DNA of 64,000 nt from Xestospongia muta. Taxonomy: Eukaryota > Porifera > Demospongiae > Haplosclerida > Petrosiidae. This document shows, piece after piece, positions 30,488 to 41,484 of the stretch. Made by a program: the position numbers and the translations under genes. The notes below the pieces were generated by a model. It had not been told where the DNA came from. It did not search any database and worked only from the letters and a program-made list of their open reading frames with translations. The DNA lies in the NCBI GenBank assembly GCA_963693285.1, contig OY848919.1, positions 11,403,461 through 11,467,460 of the forward strand, written 5' to 3'. The stretch's first letter is position 1. The number at the start of each line of letters is the position of its first letter.

Positions 30488-33400
30488 TTATGTTATGCTG
30501 TAATCTTGAAAGTGTAATATGGCGCCATCTTCTAAGCCTAACAATTTAGCAAGGTTACGCTGAACCGTTTTAATTTGGTTTCCAGTTATGCAGAGATCCG
30601 TAGGGACTTGAAAAAGGAGATTTGTATGTTGAGATTGACTATTCATATCACAAGGTATCTCAAAAATAGAGCGCTTAAGATATGGTACGAGATTATCTTC
30701 TTCATATGTTCTCAAATATAGTTTTTCATCTTCATTTCCTAAAATCTGAATTACAACTTCAAATGACTCATAATTGAACCATGTGCAGTGCCCAGACAAA
30801 TCAACAAGCACGTCAGTTATACTGTCGTCTTTATCAAAATTAGGTTGAAGTGAATTGTTATATATGTGAACAAGAGGCTTCACTAAGTTTGGATCAACCT
30901 GACGTTTTCTAAATGATTCTATAAGTTGGACAACAAAAGTTGAATAAGCTTTACGTACATGACGATTCTCATCCATTAATTTATTTCTCACTGCCTCTTT
31001 TTCACTGTCTTCTAAATCATCCCAGTTAGGAAAACGATCTTTGGCTTTCTCAGGAGCAAGATGAATTAGTCTCCTTGTCCGTGACTCTGGTGTAGCTTTC
31101 TTTGAAAGGTATGTTAAAATAGATTTAGCAACGACATTATCTTCCATTTTTAAGAAGGCATTTAAAAGTTCCATAGTGGTAGCAGCACTACCATTTTTTG
31201 CTTTCCATTCCCATAATATGGCAACTTTTCTTTCTACATCATCTTGTTTGTCTTGTGTAATACTCTCCAATGTTTTACTTGATAATTTTAGACTATCACT
31301 TATCTTAAGTTGGTCAACTAATTGTAAGTGTCGAGAGACTTCAATCAAAAGACTGTCGTCACATTCTTTATCCAGGTCTTCATATTGCAGGCATACATAT
31401 GGAATCACGCCTGTTGAATCGGCTGAGTCCACATAATGACTCAAAAAATTTCTAAGATCTGAAATTAACGAAGTAATTATAAAATAAAGCACAATATTCC
31501 TCAAGTATAATTTAAGTTGAATATTTATGTCTATTTATGTAGTAATAAAATGGATAATTATGATTACATACCTAATAATTTTGATAGCCTTTCTTTAAGA
31601 TCTCCACCAACAGCTGCTGGTGGTCCACCAAGGTCTTTAAGAATGTCAACAAATTTTTGACAATACTCCTGTATTTCTTCAACAGTATTTTTCAACTCCA
31701 ACCTGGTCATGAACTCTTCATTTATGTCAGAAAAACATTTATTATACTGTAGCTGATCATAACTACAATGTACAGCAGCTCCCTTGACAGGTTCAGTTAT
31801 CAAACCAACCTCGTAAGCTTTCTCAGCAAACGTCACAATACATGTTTTTAGTACTGAGCTTAAACAAGTGTACTGGGATCTGAACAAGTAGCCAACACCA
31901 TTTTTGTAGAACGCTGTCAATTTTGCTATTAAAAGAAAGGAGAGTGGGTTCATTTGAAGCAAAATCATGTGTGACAAATGATCTACAATCTTGAACAAAT
32001 TTAAACCATGCCAATTTTGGTTTATTTATGCTACTTAATGTACCTAGGACATATGAATAAAGGCATGCAAATTGGCTATAGAAAATTGTGATCATAATAT
32101 AAAATTTTCTTCAAAGGTGTATACATACCTGGTAGTGGCTGTTCTTGGACGTCTACATGTACATCAATGGTGCTATATACTATGAAAACAATAGATGAGT
32201 GCTCTTAAGATAAGTAGTTAGTTCTAGCAAAACATTATTTGACTAACACAACATCTATATTATCCTAGGAAACTTTTATCATAAATAAAATATTTTACTA
32301 TGGCACAATACATGTAGCAATTAAGTCAATGTTGGAGGTGTGACATAACAAAACATCTTATTTGGTTTATAATTAAATCACGTACTTTCCATAGTCTTTA
32401 ACTGACTACTTCTTTCTTCTTGTTCTCTCACTTGTAAAGTTAGTGATGTTATTTTCTCCTTTGACATATCCATCTCTTTTTGGTTGTCTATAATAATTTT
32501 GTATTAACAATTACATAATATATGATATGTACTAGTAACAGTACTATAGTTCACCTTCTTTTTCTCTGGTCAACTTCTCAACCTCTTCTTGTTTCTCTAC
32601 TAATACTTTATCAGTAGCTATATAGAACATAACCATATATGGTATGTACTACTAACAGTACCATAGCTAACCTTCTTTCTCTCCAGTTAACTTCTCAATC
32701 TCTCGTTGTTTATCTACTAATACTTTATCAGTAACTATAGAACATAACCATATATGGTATATACTACTAACAGTACCATAGCTAACTTTCTTTTTCTCCA
32801 GTCAACTTCTCAATCTTTCTTTGTTTCTCTATTAATACTTTATCAGTAGCTATAGAACATAACCATATATGGTATGTACTATACTAACAGTACTATAGCT
32901 AACCGTTTTTCTCTCTAGTCAACTTCTCAATCTCTCTTTGTTTCTCTATTAATACTTTATCAGTAGCTATAGAACATAACCATATATGGTATGTACTATA
33001 CTAACAGTACTATAGCTAACCGTTTTTCTCTCTAGTTAACTTCTCAATCTCCATTGTCTTTGCTTTGCTCATTTTAGACTCAGCAGATAATTGCATATGT
33101 AATTCTGACTCTAATAAAGTAGACAAATATGTTGTAATTCTAATAGTTTAAATTGTCCTATGATTTAATGATGGAGTTTTCCACAAAATACTAAATAATA
33201 ATAAGTTGATAATAGAATCTTTGGTGTAGTAGAGTAATTTTCTTAAGTTAACCCTCCATCCCAATAAGTGTAACTGGTCATTTATGCTAATTAATGTACC
33301 TAGGACATATGAATACACCACAAAATGTATCTAGAGGTCCAGCAAAAAGTGTATACAATTAATTATATTGTGATATTATTATTATAAATTACTATTAGTA

Positions 33401-36400
33401 ACTAATTAAATATAGACATCCTGCTAGATCTCTATCACTCTCTCAAAATCATAACTACATTACAAAGATATGTTGGCACCATTAGTTATGTACAGTGTGA
33501 ATGTAGTATGATGGTCACAATAATTATGGCAATTTAAAAATCAATTCAGGTCACCACATATGAATGTCAACAGGCTATGTTTTACCTCTCAAAGGTCCAG
33601 GATTGAGTTCAACATCACCTAATAATATAAGAAGTACCAAAAGAAATATAACCAGGGAGAAAAGTAGGTTTGTAACACCTCCATTTTCAGAACATAGCCA
33701 TGACTCTATCCACATAGCTCCCCTTATAGAAGTACATGCTATATCACAACAATGCCACAATCCAATGCTGATCCTCCATTGACATATATCAATCTTTGCA
33801 AATTGAAGCAGTGAGGTGACTGAGAATACTCCTAAAGCACTTTCAAACTTGCTTAATTAAAATTATAGTCTGATAAGCAGACCCTTCACTTCTACTTTTA
33901 TGTTAGGAAGGCTATCCTCCACCATCTCTCAATGTAAAAGTGGAAGCAATTACAATTTACATAATACATATATATATATATTTATTTAATACATGTTACA
34001 ATTTGTAGTTTTGTATTATTTGTATGATCCATAATAATAATAAATGAATTGTTACCTTTTTCTGGCTGATACTGAGTCATCGCTTCAAGAGGTTGCACTC
34101 TTGCTCTTGGTATATGTAATTCTTTGTAGTAGATAGAAAAGAGAGAATTATAGTAAAACTATATATATTATCAAGGTTATTAATAACCAACATTATTATA
34201 CTTTATATTAATAGTTCAAGAACATAAAACATTGAATGATTATCTTTTAATGATATTAAGTACCTTTCAATTATGTTTCTAATTGCAAACTATTAAAGTC
34301 ATAAATAATTGAGCATAAATTTTTATAATTGAAGTTGGATATATATATATATACACAATGCTTTTAATAGATTTTTCATGGGTCACTTATATAACATTTT
34401 AAATTACATTTGTGGTATAAGATAAGAATCTACACATATTTAGTATTTATTGATCACTCAGTTTATTGCTCACAAGGAACCCTAGTGGGAATATATATGT
34501 AGTGAGAACCTGCTCCAAGATCACGTGAGGTTTCTATTTGTTATTGCTGCGCTTTGTATGGAGACTCTTTTTAACAATGGATGGAAGTGAAGTTAGTGAC
34601 ATACAGTTGATAATGCAACATTTTGTTCATTGTTACTAACCTCACTTTTACAAGTGCCAACATCAGTTCCTTTCATGCTAGTAGGTGCTTATGGCACTCT
34701 TAGCGGATAATGATAAAATAAGTAATAAAATTTGATAAAATGGTAAGTTAGTATTTCTAGGTATTGCTCTGCTTTTAAAGGCATATTTTAGTGGTTTGTC
34801 AGCCATGACACTTGGAAAAGGTTAAGATTAAAGTGTTGTCACTTTCTCCTGAAACAGAATGCTTGGAGCTTTTTTACACAATGGTCCTGATCCTCCATTT
34901 TTGCAAGGGTCACCCCATGTTAAAATTTATAATTTTTGAACTATTTGTATGATATATACGCTTACTCTCATCAGTATTAATAAAAATAAATGAACTTTTT
35001 TATACCTTTTTCTAGATAATACATGTATAAATATATATGCATGCTTACTCTCTCCAGCACCTTCTTTATTAGTATCCATCAAAAGCTCCTCCTCAATCTT
35101 TTGACTTAACAGTGGATGACTAGTTTTAAGATGATCGTTCACCTCTAATAAAGTAAGAGATTTAAGATAAAATCATATTATTCACTGCACCTTTTAATTT
35201 TTCCATTAAATGCATGATTCTTTTCTCTTTCTCTTTTAATTGTAATGTAAGAGATGTTATAATTTCTTGTAATTTTTCTATATCTTCCTGTTTCTCTTGT
35301 GTAATCAATTCTATCTCCTTTCCTGTCAATAGAGATTATAGATCATTCTATTACTAAGTATATAATTAGTAATGCAACATGTCTTGTTTCTATAAGCAAT
35401 TGTATTGATCAGTTTAACTTGATGTATTTATACATTTATGCTTATTAATGTCAGTTCGTTATAAGAAAGTTATTCATTACTCAATATAATGCATGTATAT
35501 CTTCACAACTTACACATAATATTTAGGCAGTGCCTACAAGTCCAGCATGCATGAACCTTCTGTCCATTGTGTATTATACTTATCTATACCCTAAAAGTAT
35601 CAACTAATTTGCAGTTTCTTTAAATCTGGCTCTGCATATCAATGTCATTGCCATGCAATTCATGTTGATTTGATTGTTCTTCATAAGCCATTAATGAATC
35701 AGGAGAAACAGGATCTCTATATTAAGCTATAGTAATCTTAGCACAATACTTGAGATTTATTTAATCTTTAGCATATGAATCTTTTACATTTCATCAAATA
35801 CTACTTCTGCAAAAGATCATTCACAGTGCAATGTAAATAACGGTGTCATCATATTATTGATATTTTAAAGTCAATACAATTAGACATAGTATTATGCAAT
35901 TTGTGATATAAAAATAAACCAAACTGACTTTTTGTTTCCACTTTATTTTCTAAAGACAGAGAACGTTGTCTATGTGCTTTCTCCTTTTCCTGCAAAACTT
36001 TACTAACAATTGATACTTCTGGTATCTCAGAAAAAGATCTATAGTAAATATAAATTACATTCAGCATTAAAACTACTTAAATCATAACACTCACAAAAGA
36101 GAGATTAGGTCAATATTGACTTTGTAACTTTGTTTCGATTTTTCCCAATCAATATATGTAAACAGAGGAGATTCAGGGGAACTGCTTTCCAAAATCACTG
36201 TGGGAAGACTAAATATCAACTCAATACAGCCATCATTGTAGTCTTCAAAATTGATCACTGTGTTATATTCAAAACCTATTAATCTTGCTAGCCCTCGTTG
36301 AATAGCATTTACTTCTCGTCCAGTTAGGTAGAGATCTTCAGATACTTTGAAAACAAGTTTTGTACGCTGATATTGATCACCAGTAGGACCACATGGTATC

Positions 36401-37724
36401 TCAAAAATTGAATGCTCCAGGTAAGTGACAAGTCGGTCTTCATATGTTTTGAGATAAGCTTTTTCAACTTCATTTCCATGGTTTTCTATAATAACTTTAA
36501 GCAATCCATAGTTGAACCACGAGCAGTGTTTAGTTAATTCAGCAAACACTATAAAAATGTCATCACCTTTAGAAAAAGAAAACACTTTTTGATTATTAAC
36601 GAAGACATTTGCAAGTGCCTGAACACATGCTGGTTTAACATTACGCTCACTAAATGAATGCATAACGTGGGCAACAAAAGATGTAAAAGCTTTCTTTACA
36701 TCAACATATTCATCTGTTAATTTGTTTCTCTCCACCTGCTGCTCAGTCTCTGTTAATGTTGTCCAGTTTGGATATGTCTTTTGTGGAGAAATACGAAGTG
36801 TCGAAGCATCTCCTTCTGATGTTTTCCTTGAAATATATTTCAAAATGGATTTAGCAGCTGGTTCATTTTCCATTGCTAAGAAGGATTTTACTAGTTCAAT
36901 ATAGGTAGCAGTATTTTGTCTCTTTCTTTTCCAGGTCCATAGCACAGCATTCTTTCTATCGATATCATCTGGTTCATTTGAAATACTTTCAAGAATATCA
37001 CTTGATAGATTAAGGCTATGACCTACTTCCATATAATCATTAATATGTCGTACAACTTCAATAAAAACACTGTCATCACATAGTTTATTTAAATCCATAT
37101 ATTGTAAACCAAATTGACTGAAATAATTTGAAAGGTCTGTACAAAAAGAGAAAATATGGAATAGGTTACTTTAGATAAAGAGTTATAATAATAATTTCAC
37201 ATTTAGCAAATCTGCTGAACATTGTATTGAATCAATTTTTATAATTGATCATATTACTATAAACATATATACAAACCAAGAACCACAATTGTTTATTCAT
37301 CATCTTCGAAATATTTATAAAGATAAAAACACTTCTGATTACCACATGTTTCCTATTTTTATAAACTCAGCATACTAGTACAATTGTAGAGAGTTCTATA
37401 GTTTGTAATTAAAAAAAAAACTTGCCTAGATATTCAAGTATCTCATCCACTTTACTCTTGTTATCAACAATAGGACCTCCAATGGCAGAGATTACTGTTT
37501 CCCAAATGACAGGAGATGATTGAGTATTAATCCAGATTTGGATTACTTTAGAAAGTTTGGTTTTATCATCATATTGAACAGCTCTGGATAAACTGTCCAA
37601 TTCATTGGTATGAACATTAAAAGCCAAACCAATACAGTGCCATTTACTGCTGATATCGGCTAATAAAGGTAGAAGATCATCATGATTGGGAGCCTCTTTT
37701 AACATATTAGAAATATCTGGAAAA
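30488..37724 (-). CDS. Death-fold modular protein 2: Death-Death-coiled coils-helical exon-Death
   Basis: Supported exons in reading order: Death-like exon (37724-37425; DISNMLKEAPNHDD...KWHCIGLAF); large exon (37136-36097) with a second Death domain (HSLNLSSDILESI...AVLWTWKRKRQNTAT) and the FVAHVMHSFSERNV...CSWFNYGLLKVIIE helical domain; coiled-coil or linker exons (36040-34055); a possible 2A exon (33819-33586); coiled coils (33115-32390) including a tandemly repeated 63-nt exon; a helical exon (31925-31570); and a last exon (31458-30488) with a third Death domain and ILHFQDYSIT end. It is paralogous to gene 1's 3' half. The 5' end is unsettled: the first supported exon accepts a one-base phase, fitting a leader at 41484-41130 (2A-like) or one near 38226-38088. 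Probably a signalling adaptor; role inferred. Confidence 0.65.
32556..33115 (-). repeat. Tandemly amplified coiled-coil exon with its intron (~117-bp unit)
   Basis: Five related exon/intron units in a row. Three or more encode a 21-residue coil close to TDKVLVEKQREIEKLTGEKE, each 63 nt, phase 1 at both ends, separated by near-identical introns (GTTAGCTA...AGTAC...CCATATATGG). The most upstream unit (33115-33022) is the longer ESELHMQLSAESK exon, also present in gene 1 at 26.2-26.3 kb. Exon number can change here without breaking the frame. Confidence 0.85.
33586..33819 (-). CDS. Candidate exon encoding a hydrophobic segment and a 2A-like GDVELNPGP motif
   Basis: On the minus strand an AG acceptor (TATTCTCAG) opens a 234-nt segment without stops that ends in AGAG|GTAAAA, phase 1 on both sides. 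It encodes SLLQFAKIDICQWRISIGLW, an internal Met (MWIESW), a hydrophobic run (NLLFSLVIFLLVLLILLGD) and DVELNPGP (33593-33616), then two residues to the donor. D[VI]E.NPGP is the 2A/StopGo consensus, at which the ribosome fails to form the Gly-Pro bond. The next downstream exon (33115) starts in matching phase. It could be an internal exon or an alternative first exon using the internal Met. It could also derive from a retrotransposon; no reverse transcriptase is seen beside it. Confidence 0.55.
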
Positions 37725-41129: not shown

Positions 41130-41484
41130 CTGTTTTAGGCCCAGGGTTGAGTTCAATATCGCCTGACATTATGAGTAGAAAGAGAAACACAACCAGAGAA
41201 AAGGCCAGGTTACCGCCAACCTTACAATCTTCTAAATCAGACCATAGTGACTCCGTCCATCCAGTAGAACTAGCAGTTCCCTTGGTAATTGGTACCTGAC
41301 AAGAACACCACAAGCCAATAGTAAGTCTCCACTGGCAGATATCTATCATGATTAAAATAAGAAACGGAAACTGATAAATGCGGCCCGAGCTGAAGCTTAA
41401 GAGACTCAACAAAAAAGGAGGACGAAATTTGGTATCGGATTTCCTGAATACCATTGGGGTGGGCGAGCCTGATCGACCTGTCAT
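41130..41484 (-). CDS. Candidate leader exon with 2A-like GDIELNPGP motif
   Basis: An ATG at 41484-41482 (MTGRSGSPTPMVF) opens 118 codons ending in ACAG|GTATAC (phase 1). It contains MIDICQWRLTIGLWCSCQV, a TESLW segment, a hydrophobic run (LAFSLVVFLFLLIMSG) and GDIELNPGP (41163-41137), then KT and the donor. The order IDICQWR..IGLW - [TI]ESLW-like - hydrophobic - 2A is the same as in the 33.6 kb exon, although the DNA is diverged. The next coding segment downstream on this strand is Death gene 2's exon at 37724, whose acceptor fits this phase. The inferred product: a short signal-like leader separated by StopGo from a Death-domain protein. Other in-frame Met starts exist (MVFRKS, MIDICQW). 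Confidence 0.55.

Follow-up and report, generated by a model that had tools for sequence, protein, structure and literature searches.

The 64,000-nucleotide window analysed here, from the sponge Xestospongia muta (contig OY848919.1, positions 11,403,461 to 11,467,460), carries on its minus strand a short predicted exon with a 2A, or StopGo, motif near its end, at which ribosomes are predicted to skip between Gly and Pro. A sequence-only reading had described a 234-nucleotide (nt) stop-free piece with phase 1 at both ends, closed by GDVELNPGP and lying in a Death-domain gene, and the letters bear this out. Positions 33819–33586 are open between an AG at 33821–33820 and a GT at 33585–33584, and the 93 open codons around them (33856–33575) end in a hydrophobic stretch, GDVELNPGP and LRG (...TNLLFSLVIFLLVLLILLGDVELNPGPLRG/gtaaaa). 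A PF00531 match in the open reading frame (ORF) at 30488–31534 (E = 7.7e-8) places the segment by position in a Death-domain gene. We regard the segment as a probable copy of a host family of first coding exons, which encode leaders of about 72 residues and stand before receptor and adaptor genes.

The window holds two copies of this exon (Table 1). The first (33586–33796) is among the least typical of the family, with AAG in place of the start ATG and Leu before the Gly of the motif, where the other 103 of 104 leaders have Ser, Ala or Cys. In the second (41130–41349), the ATG is intact, the peptide reads MIDICQWRLTIGLWCSCQVPITKGTASSTGWTESLWSDLEDCKVGGNLAFSLVVFLFLLIMSGDIELNPGPKTG, and the core is DIELNPGP (41137–41160). 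This core and the DVELNPGP of the first copy (33593–33616) both conform to the StopGo core (D/G/C/N)(V/I)ExNPGP. Downstream of the first copy lie candidate coiled-coil mini-exons, a candidate helical exon and then a Death-domain exon (31458–30488); downstream of the second are candidate phase-1 exons at 37716–37426 and then 37136–36091, the latter with a Death domain. The bodies behind both window leaders are Death-domain bodies without NACHT. The four candidate 63-nt mini-exons at 32966–32555 resemble one another at a spacing of 115–117 bp and represent a tandem exon duplication, through which the coil could vary in length.

Table 1 Coordinates of the two leader exons, their parts and the exons behind them
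Feature	Positions	Strand	Remarks
Leader exon homolog (first copy)	33586..33796	-	Head KIDICQWRISIGLW, middle, hydrophobic segment, StopGo motif, 7 nt, phase-1 donor; from sequence and alignment
AAG where the family has its start codon	33794..33796	-	Met there in 101/104 head-bearing copies
In-frame ATG within the exon (MWIESWLCSENGG...)	33713..33715	-	5′ of the hydrophobic segment
Hydrophobic segment LLFSLVIFLLVLLILL	33620..33667	-	From hydropathy
StopGo core DVELNPG^P	33593..33616	-	Predicted skip: Gly ends at 33596, Pro starts at 33595
GT donor, phase 1	33584..33585	-	7 nt past the motif
Candidate coiled-coil exon	33021..33110	-	Phase 1 at both ends
Four candidate 63-nt coiled-coil mini-exons	32555..32966	-	32966-32904, 32849-32787, 32734-32672, 32617-32555; phase 1 at both ends
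Candidate helical-domain exon	31572..31925	-	CARD/Death-like by eye, without Pfam match; several possible acceptors, start uncertain
Death-domain body exon (PF00531)	30488..31458	-	Phase-1 acceptor; at least 106 matches of the body in the genome
Second leader exon, intact	41130..41349	-	MIDICQWRLTIGLW...SGDIELNPGPKTG; motif 41137-41160; donor GT 41129-41128
Candidate helical-domain exon (second copy)	37426..37716	-	Phase 1 at both ends; likely donor of GC-AG type (ctag/gcaagt) at 37426
Death-domain body exon (second copy)	36091..37136	-	PF00531, E = 8.8e-6; phase-1 acceptor

Leader exons across the genome

The 2A motif behind a hydrophobic segment, which the sequence-only reading had also recognized, recurs throughout the genome. 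A DNA search for D[VI]ExNPGP finds 150 sites across the 158-Mb genome, of which 54 are forward and 96 reverse (84 and 66 in the split listings), and the pattern read backwards finds none, indicating that the motif is not a product of chance. A protein search with the 93-codon ORF returned at least 150 matches including the query itself (of 173 candidates), the best of the others at E = 1.3e-32. The exact motif is present in 129 of the 150 scored matches and absent from 21. Since the query includes the motif, this support is not fully independent of the motif count. DNA was in hand for 142 of 171 places and for 130 of the 150 with the exact motif, the remaining 29 places being on C14. The conserved head was found by a search expression at 104 of these 130 sites, so that counts out of 104 omit the other 26, of which at least three (L020, L051 and L083) are leaders that the expression overlooked.

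The family has a common plan: a start codon, a head MIDxxQWRxSIGLW, a variable middle, a hydrophobic segment and ...LLILSG-D[VI]ELNPG^P, followed by a phase-1 donor. The start position is Met in 101 of the 104 leaders, the exceptions being the first window copy (Lys) and the copies at C4:4570436 and C4:5091996 (Leu). The donor GT lies exactly 7 nt past the motif in 94 of the 104 (GT[AG]A in 76), while any other of the first 20 offsets is found in at most 9; five of the remaining leaders have another GT of the same phase and five have none in the region searched. The length up to the glycine of NPG is 62–78 residues with a median of 72, and 71–74 in 78 of the 104. Hydropathy reaches at least 1.6 in every leader (104/104), and the best 19-residue hydropathy window ends 3–9 residues short of this glycine (5 residues in 72/104). 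Upstream of the core, an L-rich hexapeptide ends in (A/S/C)G in 103 of the 104 leaders, the first window copy, with LG, being the sole exception. In an alignment of 15 chosen leaders, W7, R8, G12, G64, D65, E67, N69, P70, G71 and P72 are invariant. At C4:3571034 (-), C9:3767260 (+) and C9:3787043 (+), the frame continues past NPGP (RAEDQ.../RTEDQ...) without the usual 7-nt donor, as if the body were in the same exon.

Selection was estimated from 34 independent sister pairs as the ratio of nonsynonymous to synonymous substitution rates (dN/dS), in a set that, like those for hydropathy and the tree, still includes two leaders out of register (C4:2941243 and C4:3800242). The ratio is 0.23 in the head (bootstrap 0.16–0.35), 0.40 in the hydrophobic part (0.29–0.54) and 0.80 in the middle (0.60–1.02); the head and the hydrophobic part are under purifying selection. 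Mean divergence within the exon is 11%, and identity is 63.5% over the 30 nt 5′ of the ATG and 54.7% at the start of the intron, both ungapped. Since the relatives open with Met, keep the donor at 7 nt, show this distribution of dN/dS and diverge less within the exon than in its flanks, the unit acts as a coding first exon. This favours the second idea of the sequence-only reading, that the segment may be used as a first exon encoding a recoding leader. A tree of 101 leaders has one weakly supported branch (82/35) that parts the leaders of NACHT genes from those of Death bodies. Having too few columns, the tree cannot test exon shuffling, and the idea of a moving exon rests not on it but on the different bodies behind homologous leaders.

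A profile of the 15 leaders matches 891 protein clusters at E ≤ 0.01. Among the 120 best of these 891, the core is kept in 116 and the start falls exactly at Met in 112, a count that leans towards Met because the starts of the clusters are set by gene callers. A search for full-length gene models with the leader yielded 28 candidates, none of them at E ≤ 0.01, and thus no deposited protein backs the leader gene model.

Bodies downstream of the leaders

The genome counts of the bodies are lower bounds, at 98 matches for NACHT (102 scored of 155 candidates) and 106 for the Death body of the window (116 scored of 190). For 46 of the 171 leaders, a NACHT match follows within 5 kb on the same strand, compared with a mean of 0.7 and a maximum of 8 in 1000 circular-shift runs. 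For the Death body the figure is 12 of 171 (circular-shift mean 0.35, maximum 6 in 1000 runs). On the opposite strand, the 5 kb downstream of the 171 leaders contain neither a NACHT nor a Death-body match. Counted from the receptors, 46 of the 98 scored NACHT matches have a leader within 5.5 kb upstream. No leader was found within this distance upstream of the NACHT matches on C2 (16), C13 (4), C15 (2) and C5 (1). The NACHT clusters on C2, on C13 and at C3:1.31–1.38 Mb are leaderless by the same measure, suggesting that only part of the NLR repertoire carries the leader.

Loci of 10 kb were read at 20 places. At L028, reading by eye gives leader, Death, CARD and NACHT in this order, joined at phase-1 junctions over 1401 open codons, with Death and CARD scores below the Pfam cut-offs. 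Other bodies stand behind leaders elsewhere, assigned to them by position only. Behind a divergent leader, MVDISIWRARIGLFN...AGDVEVNPGP, at L020 (C1:568606, -) come a TPR ORF and a CHAT ORF, both on its strand. The leader at L016 (C1:17330305, +) lies 5′ of a 1782-codon open frame rich in ankyrin repeats. Downstream of the sister leaders L026 (C2:9116508, -) and L027 (C2:9172311, -) are a RING-B-box-NHL ORF and a B-box-NHL ORF, which are TRIM-NHL-like.

A cluster at C1:14.53–14.65 Mb offers a contrast between leaders with and without the skip motif. Behind each of three NPGP leaders (L012, L014 and L015) lie an open Death exon of 98–103 codons and a NACHT P-loop motif. In four others (L009, L010, L011 and L013, at C1:14532791, 14541363, 14546049 and 14576035), NPAT or NPIN stands for NPGP and the head and hydrophobic segment are kept. 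The Death exon behind each of the four is truncated to 47 open codons, and no NACHT P-loop of the relatives' form occurs in their 10-kb loci. The skip motif and the receptor body therefore seem to be kept or lost together, but the four leaders look like recent duplicates, which implies that few independent events stand behind them. With a broken Death exon behind all four, these loci look like decayed NLR genes. In three of the four, about 4 kb further downstream, there is a beta-helix ORF of 1340 codons that contains several hydrophobic segments. We rejected the idea that the NPAT/NPIN leaders are plain secretion signals of this beta-helix, multi-transmembrane ORF, given its distance and its own Met and hydrophobic start.

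A possible StopGo switch and its alternatives

Since the leaders form a family with a start codon and a donor, in part have NACHT and Death bodies downstream and have no RVT_1 match among those scored within 5 kb downstream, the window segment is probably a copy of a host StopGo signal leader, in which the skip would set how much of the product is cytosolic and how much goes to the membrane. Skipping, targeting and splicing are all predictions here. The phase-1 donor fits the phase-1 acceptors of the downstream Death, CARD-like and NACHT exons. The ribosome exit tunnel holds 30–40 residues. With the ribosome at NPG^P, the hydrophobic segment would still lie within the tunnel, and the skip would thus be decided before the signal recognition particle could see the segment. 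If the skip occurs, a leader of about 72 residues would be released as a tail-anchored mini-protein whose hydrophobic part lies near the C-terminus; the receptor or adaptor would start with Pro and remain cytosolic without a targeting signal. If it does not occur, the fused hydrophobic segment would emerge and the whole protein would go to the endoplasmic reticulum or the membrane. The skip ratio would then set the cytosolic-to-membrane share.

The closest known system is found in the sea urchin Strongylocentrotus purpuratus. In reporters, the SpNLR2A6 leader yields a cytosolic product upon skipping and directs the product to the exocytic pathway without it; that study did not look into what becomes of the leader (Roulston et al. 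2016, PMC4981915). The two systems share an N-terminal hydrophobic leader ending in StopGo before invertebrate NLR genes, and the same possible logic of dual targeting. The family has the N-terminal position (Met in 101/104) and the NACHT body (46/171) of the SpNLR2A type. However, the SpNLR2A leaders at the very N-terminus are 26 residues long, and no such length of about 26 residues occurs in the family, in which the leaders are 62–78 residues long and have the conserved QWRxSIGLW head. Unlike SpNLR2A, the sponge leader is a separate phase-1 exon that also stands before Death-only ORFs and, judged only by position, before TPR-CHAT, ankyrin and B-box-NHL ORFs. Among viral StopGo sequences, PMC12846837 describes an L-rich, LLLLSG-like class with a hexapeptide ending in (A/S/C)G and D at the first core position. 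The family has the same core and type of upstream hexapeptide, with D first and G before it. Viral StopGo sequences stand between the parts of polyproteins, whereas here the motif belongs to cellular genes and is used as a leader.

Several observations weigh against a StopGo signal leader. About 45 hydrophilic residues precede the hydrophobic segment, so the leader is not a classical signal peptide, and the order in which skipping comes before targeting depends on general knowledge of the tunnel length. A fold model of the leader (the second copy aligned with 43 of the best 120 relatives) has a mean predicted local distance difference test score (pLDDT) of 60.5, a low confidence, and was not used. 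Because the leader set was partly picked by the motif, the conservation of the motif itself (dN/dS 0.13, 0.05–0.22) is biased by the choice of sites. Its variable core position is Leu in 95 of the 104 leaders, whereas the viral L-rich class prefers Ser there (PMC12846837). The joining of leaders to bodies is predicted from position and phase, and 112 of the 171 leaders, including the C14 copies and many on C4, have neither a NACHT nor a Death-body match within 5.5 kb. NACHT matches also lie within 5 kb upstream of leaders (9 on the same strand and 3 on the opposite one), as do Death-body matches (3 and 2), which is expected in tandem arrays. Finally, the first window copy lacks the family start codon.

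This last point bears on the alternative that survives best, namely that the family is real and the first window copy is a decayed leader without present function. We give this a serious chance, somewhat short of an even one. Decay would explain both the AAG at the start and the Leu before the motif Gly, but apart from these changes the exon is open and keeps its donor, the Death body is open over 348 codons and an in-frame ATG still stands at 33715. The copy may be decayed, may begin at this inner ATG with a shorter, signal-peptide-like leader, or may receive its start from an upstream exon.

It is unlikely that the exon encodes a plain signal-anchor leader, in which NPGP is kept for another reason or skips weakly. 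The hydrophobic segment in all 104 leaders would suit such an anchor, but conservation falls on the StopGo residues (D, V/I, E, N, P, G and P with the L-rich SG), with codons that vary synonymously, and the bodies are Death and NACHT modules, which are cytosolic in other systems. An anchor would agree with the suggestion of membrane-bound NLRs in sponges, made in PMC12909245, and sponge NLRs with predicted transmembrane domains are reported there and in PMC6208332.

The sequence-only reading had preferred an internal, phase-1 symmetric exon amid a Death-domain gene, whose StopGo motif would split the product in two, and this we consider improbable. The AG and GT around the 234-nt piece frame just such an exon, and the missing start codon of the first copy would make an upstream exon useful. 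An AG at the acceptor position occurs in 4 of the 10 Death-body leaders whose start region can be read, the window copy among them. However, the other three, out of the nine remaining Death-body leaders, have the ATG as well, as do 101 of the 104 relatives in all; the AG is absent from 95 of the 104 and present in 9, and the region 5′ of the ATG is much less alike than the exon. On the start codon, the AG and the upstream identity, we rejected the internal exon for the family and retain it as a minor rival for the first window copy.

This genome seems to contain retrotransposons with 2A motifs. At eight of the fetched sites (L017, L021, L024, L025, L031, L086, L089 and L102), NPGP is followed by open VK[CY]V sequence, in six of them VK[CY]VC. 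Of the three ORFs scanned at such sites, those at L017 and L021 match a PHD finger and that at L025 matches nothing, and L017 also contains RVT_1. Reportedly, as Odon et al. are said to have described in 2013, 2A leaders occur at the N-terminus of ORFs of retrotransposons without long terminal repeats (non-LTR), which resemble the present family in having a Leu-rich segment and D[VI]ExNPGP near the protein start. Unlike the leaders, the retrotransposon-like sites read straight into the ORF (with a PHD finger in 2 of 3 scanned), lack the QWR head and have a reverse transcriptase at one locus. That the leader itself is part of a non-LTR ORF beginning with 2A, which the sequence-only reading had named among the findings that would speak against it, is very improbable: leader-type sites have a donor 7 nt past the motif and host domains after it, and we rejected this origin on a partial test (150 of 966 candidates scored, with the RVT_1 of L017 outside the scored set), in which, of the 150 scored RVT_1 matches, one falls within 10 kb downstream of any of the 171 sites and none within 5 kb.

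Implications for sponge receptors

A literature search with sponge and 2A/NLR terms gave no title on sponge 2A leaders among the matches listed; Yuen 2014, which is said to deal with sponge NLRs, and Odon 2013 may mention them. StopGo motifs are very rare in cellular coding sequences, according to PMC12846837, and the genome of this one animal contains 104 or more leader-type StopGo sites with a full head. The sponge family joins the sea-urchin leaders as another instance of immune receptors with a 2A leader. It is a longer, head-bearing counterpart of the sea-urchin leaders with several kinds of body, which works alike on paper and yet is not the same thing.

The variety of bodies points to a movable leader exon that is not confined to NLRs, and the conserved head hints that the cast-off leader may have a function. 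A bolder reading, which we hold tentatively and rather doubt, is that a non-bilaterian animal possesses a genome-wide, exon-borne StopGo switch. One movable phase-1 leader exon would then serve NLR, Death-adaptor, TPR-CHAT, ankyrin and TRIM-NHL-like genes and give cytosolic and membrane forms of each. The shed QWRxSIGLW leader of about 72 residues would be a tail-anchored protein with a job of its own, and the "membrane-bound NLRs" of sponges would be unskipped or misread leaders. With the StopGo signal leader, the membrane-bound look of some sponge NLRs gains an explanation that can be tested, and, if it is true, a single message could give rise to one protein in two forms, membrane-targeted and free.

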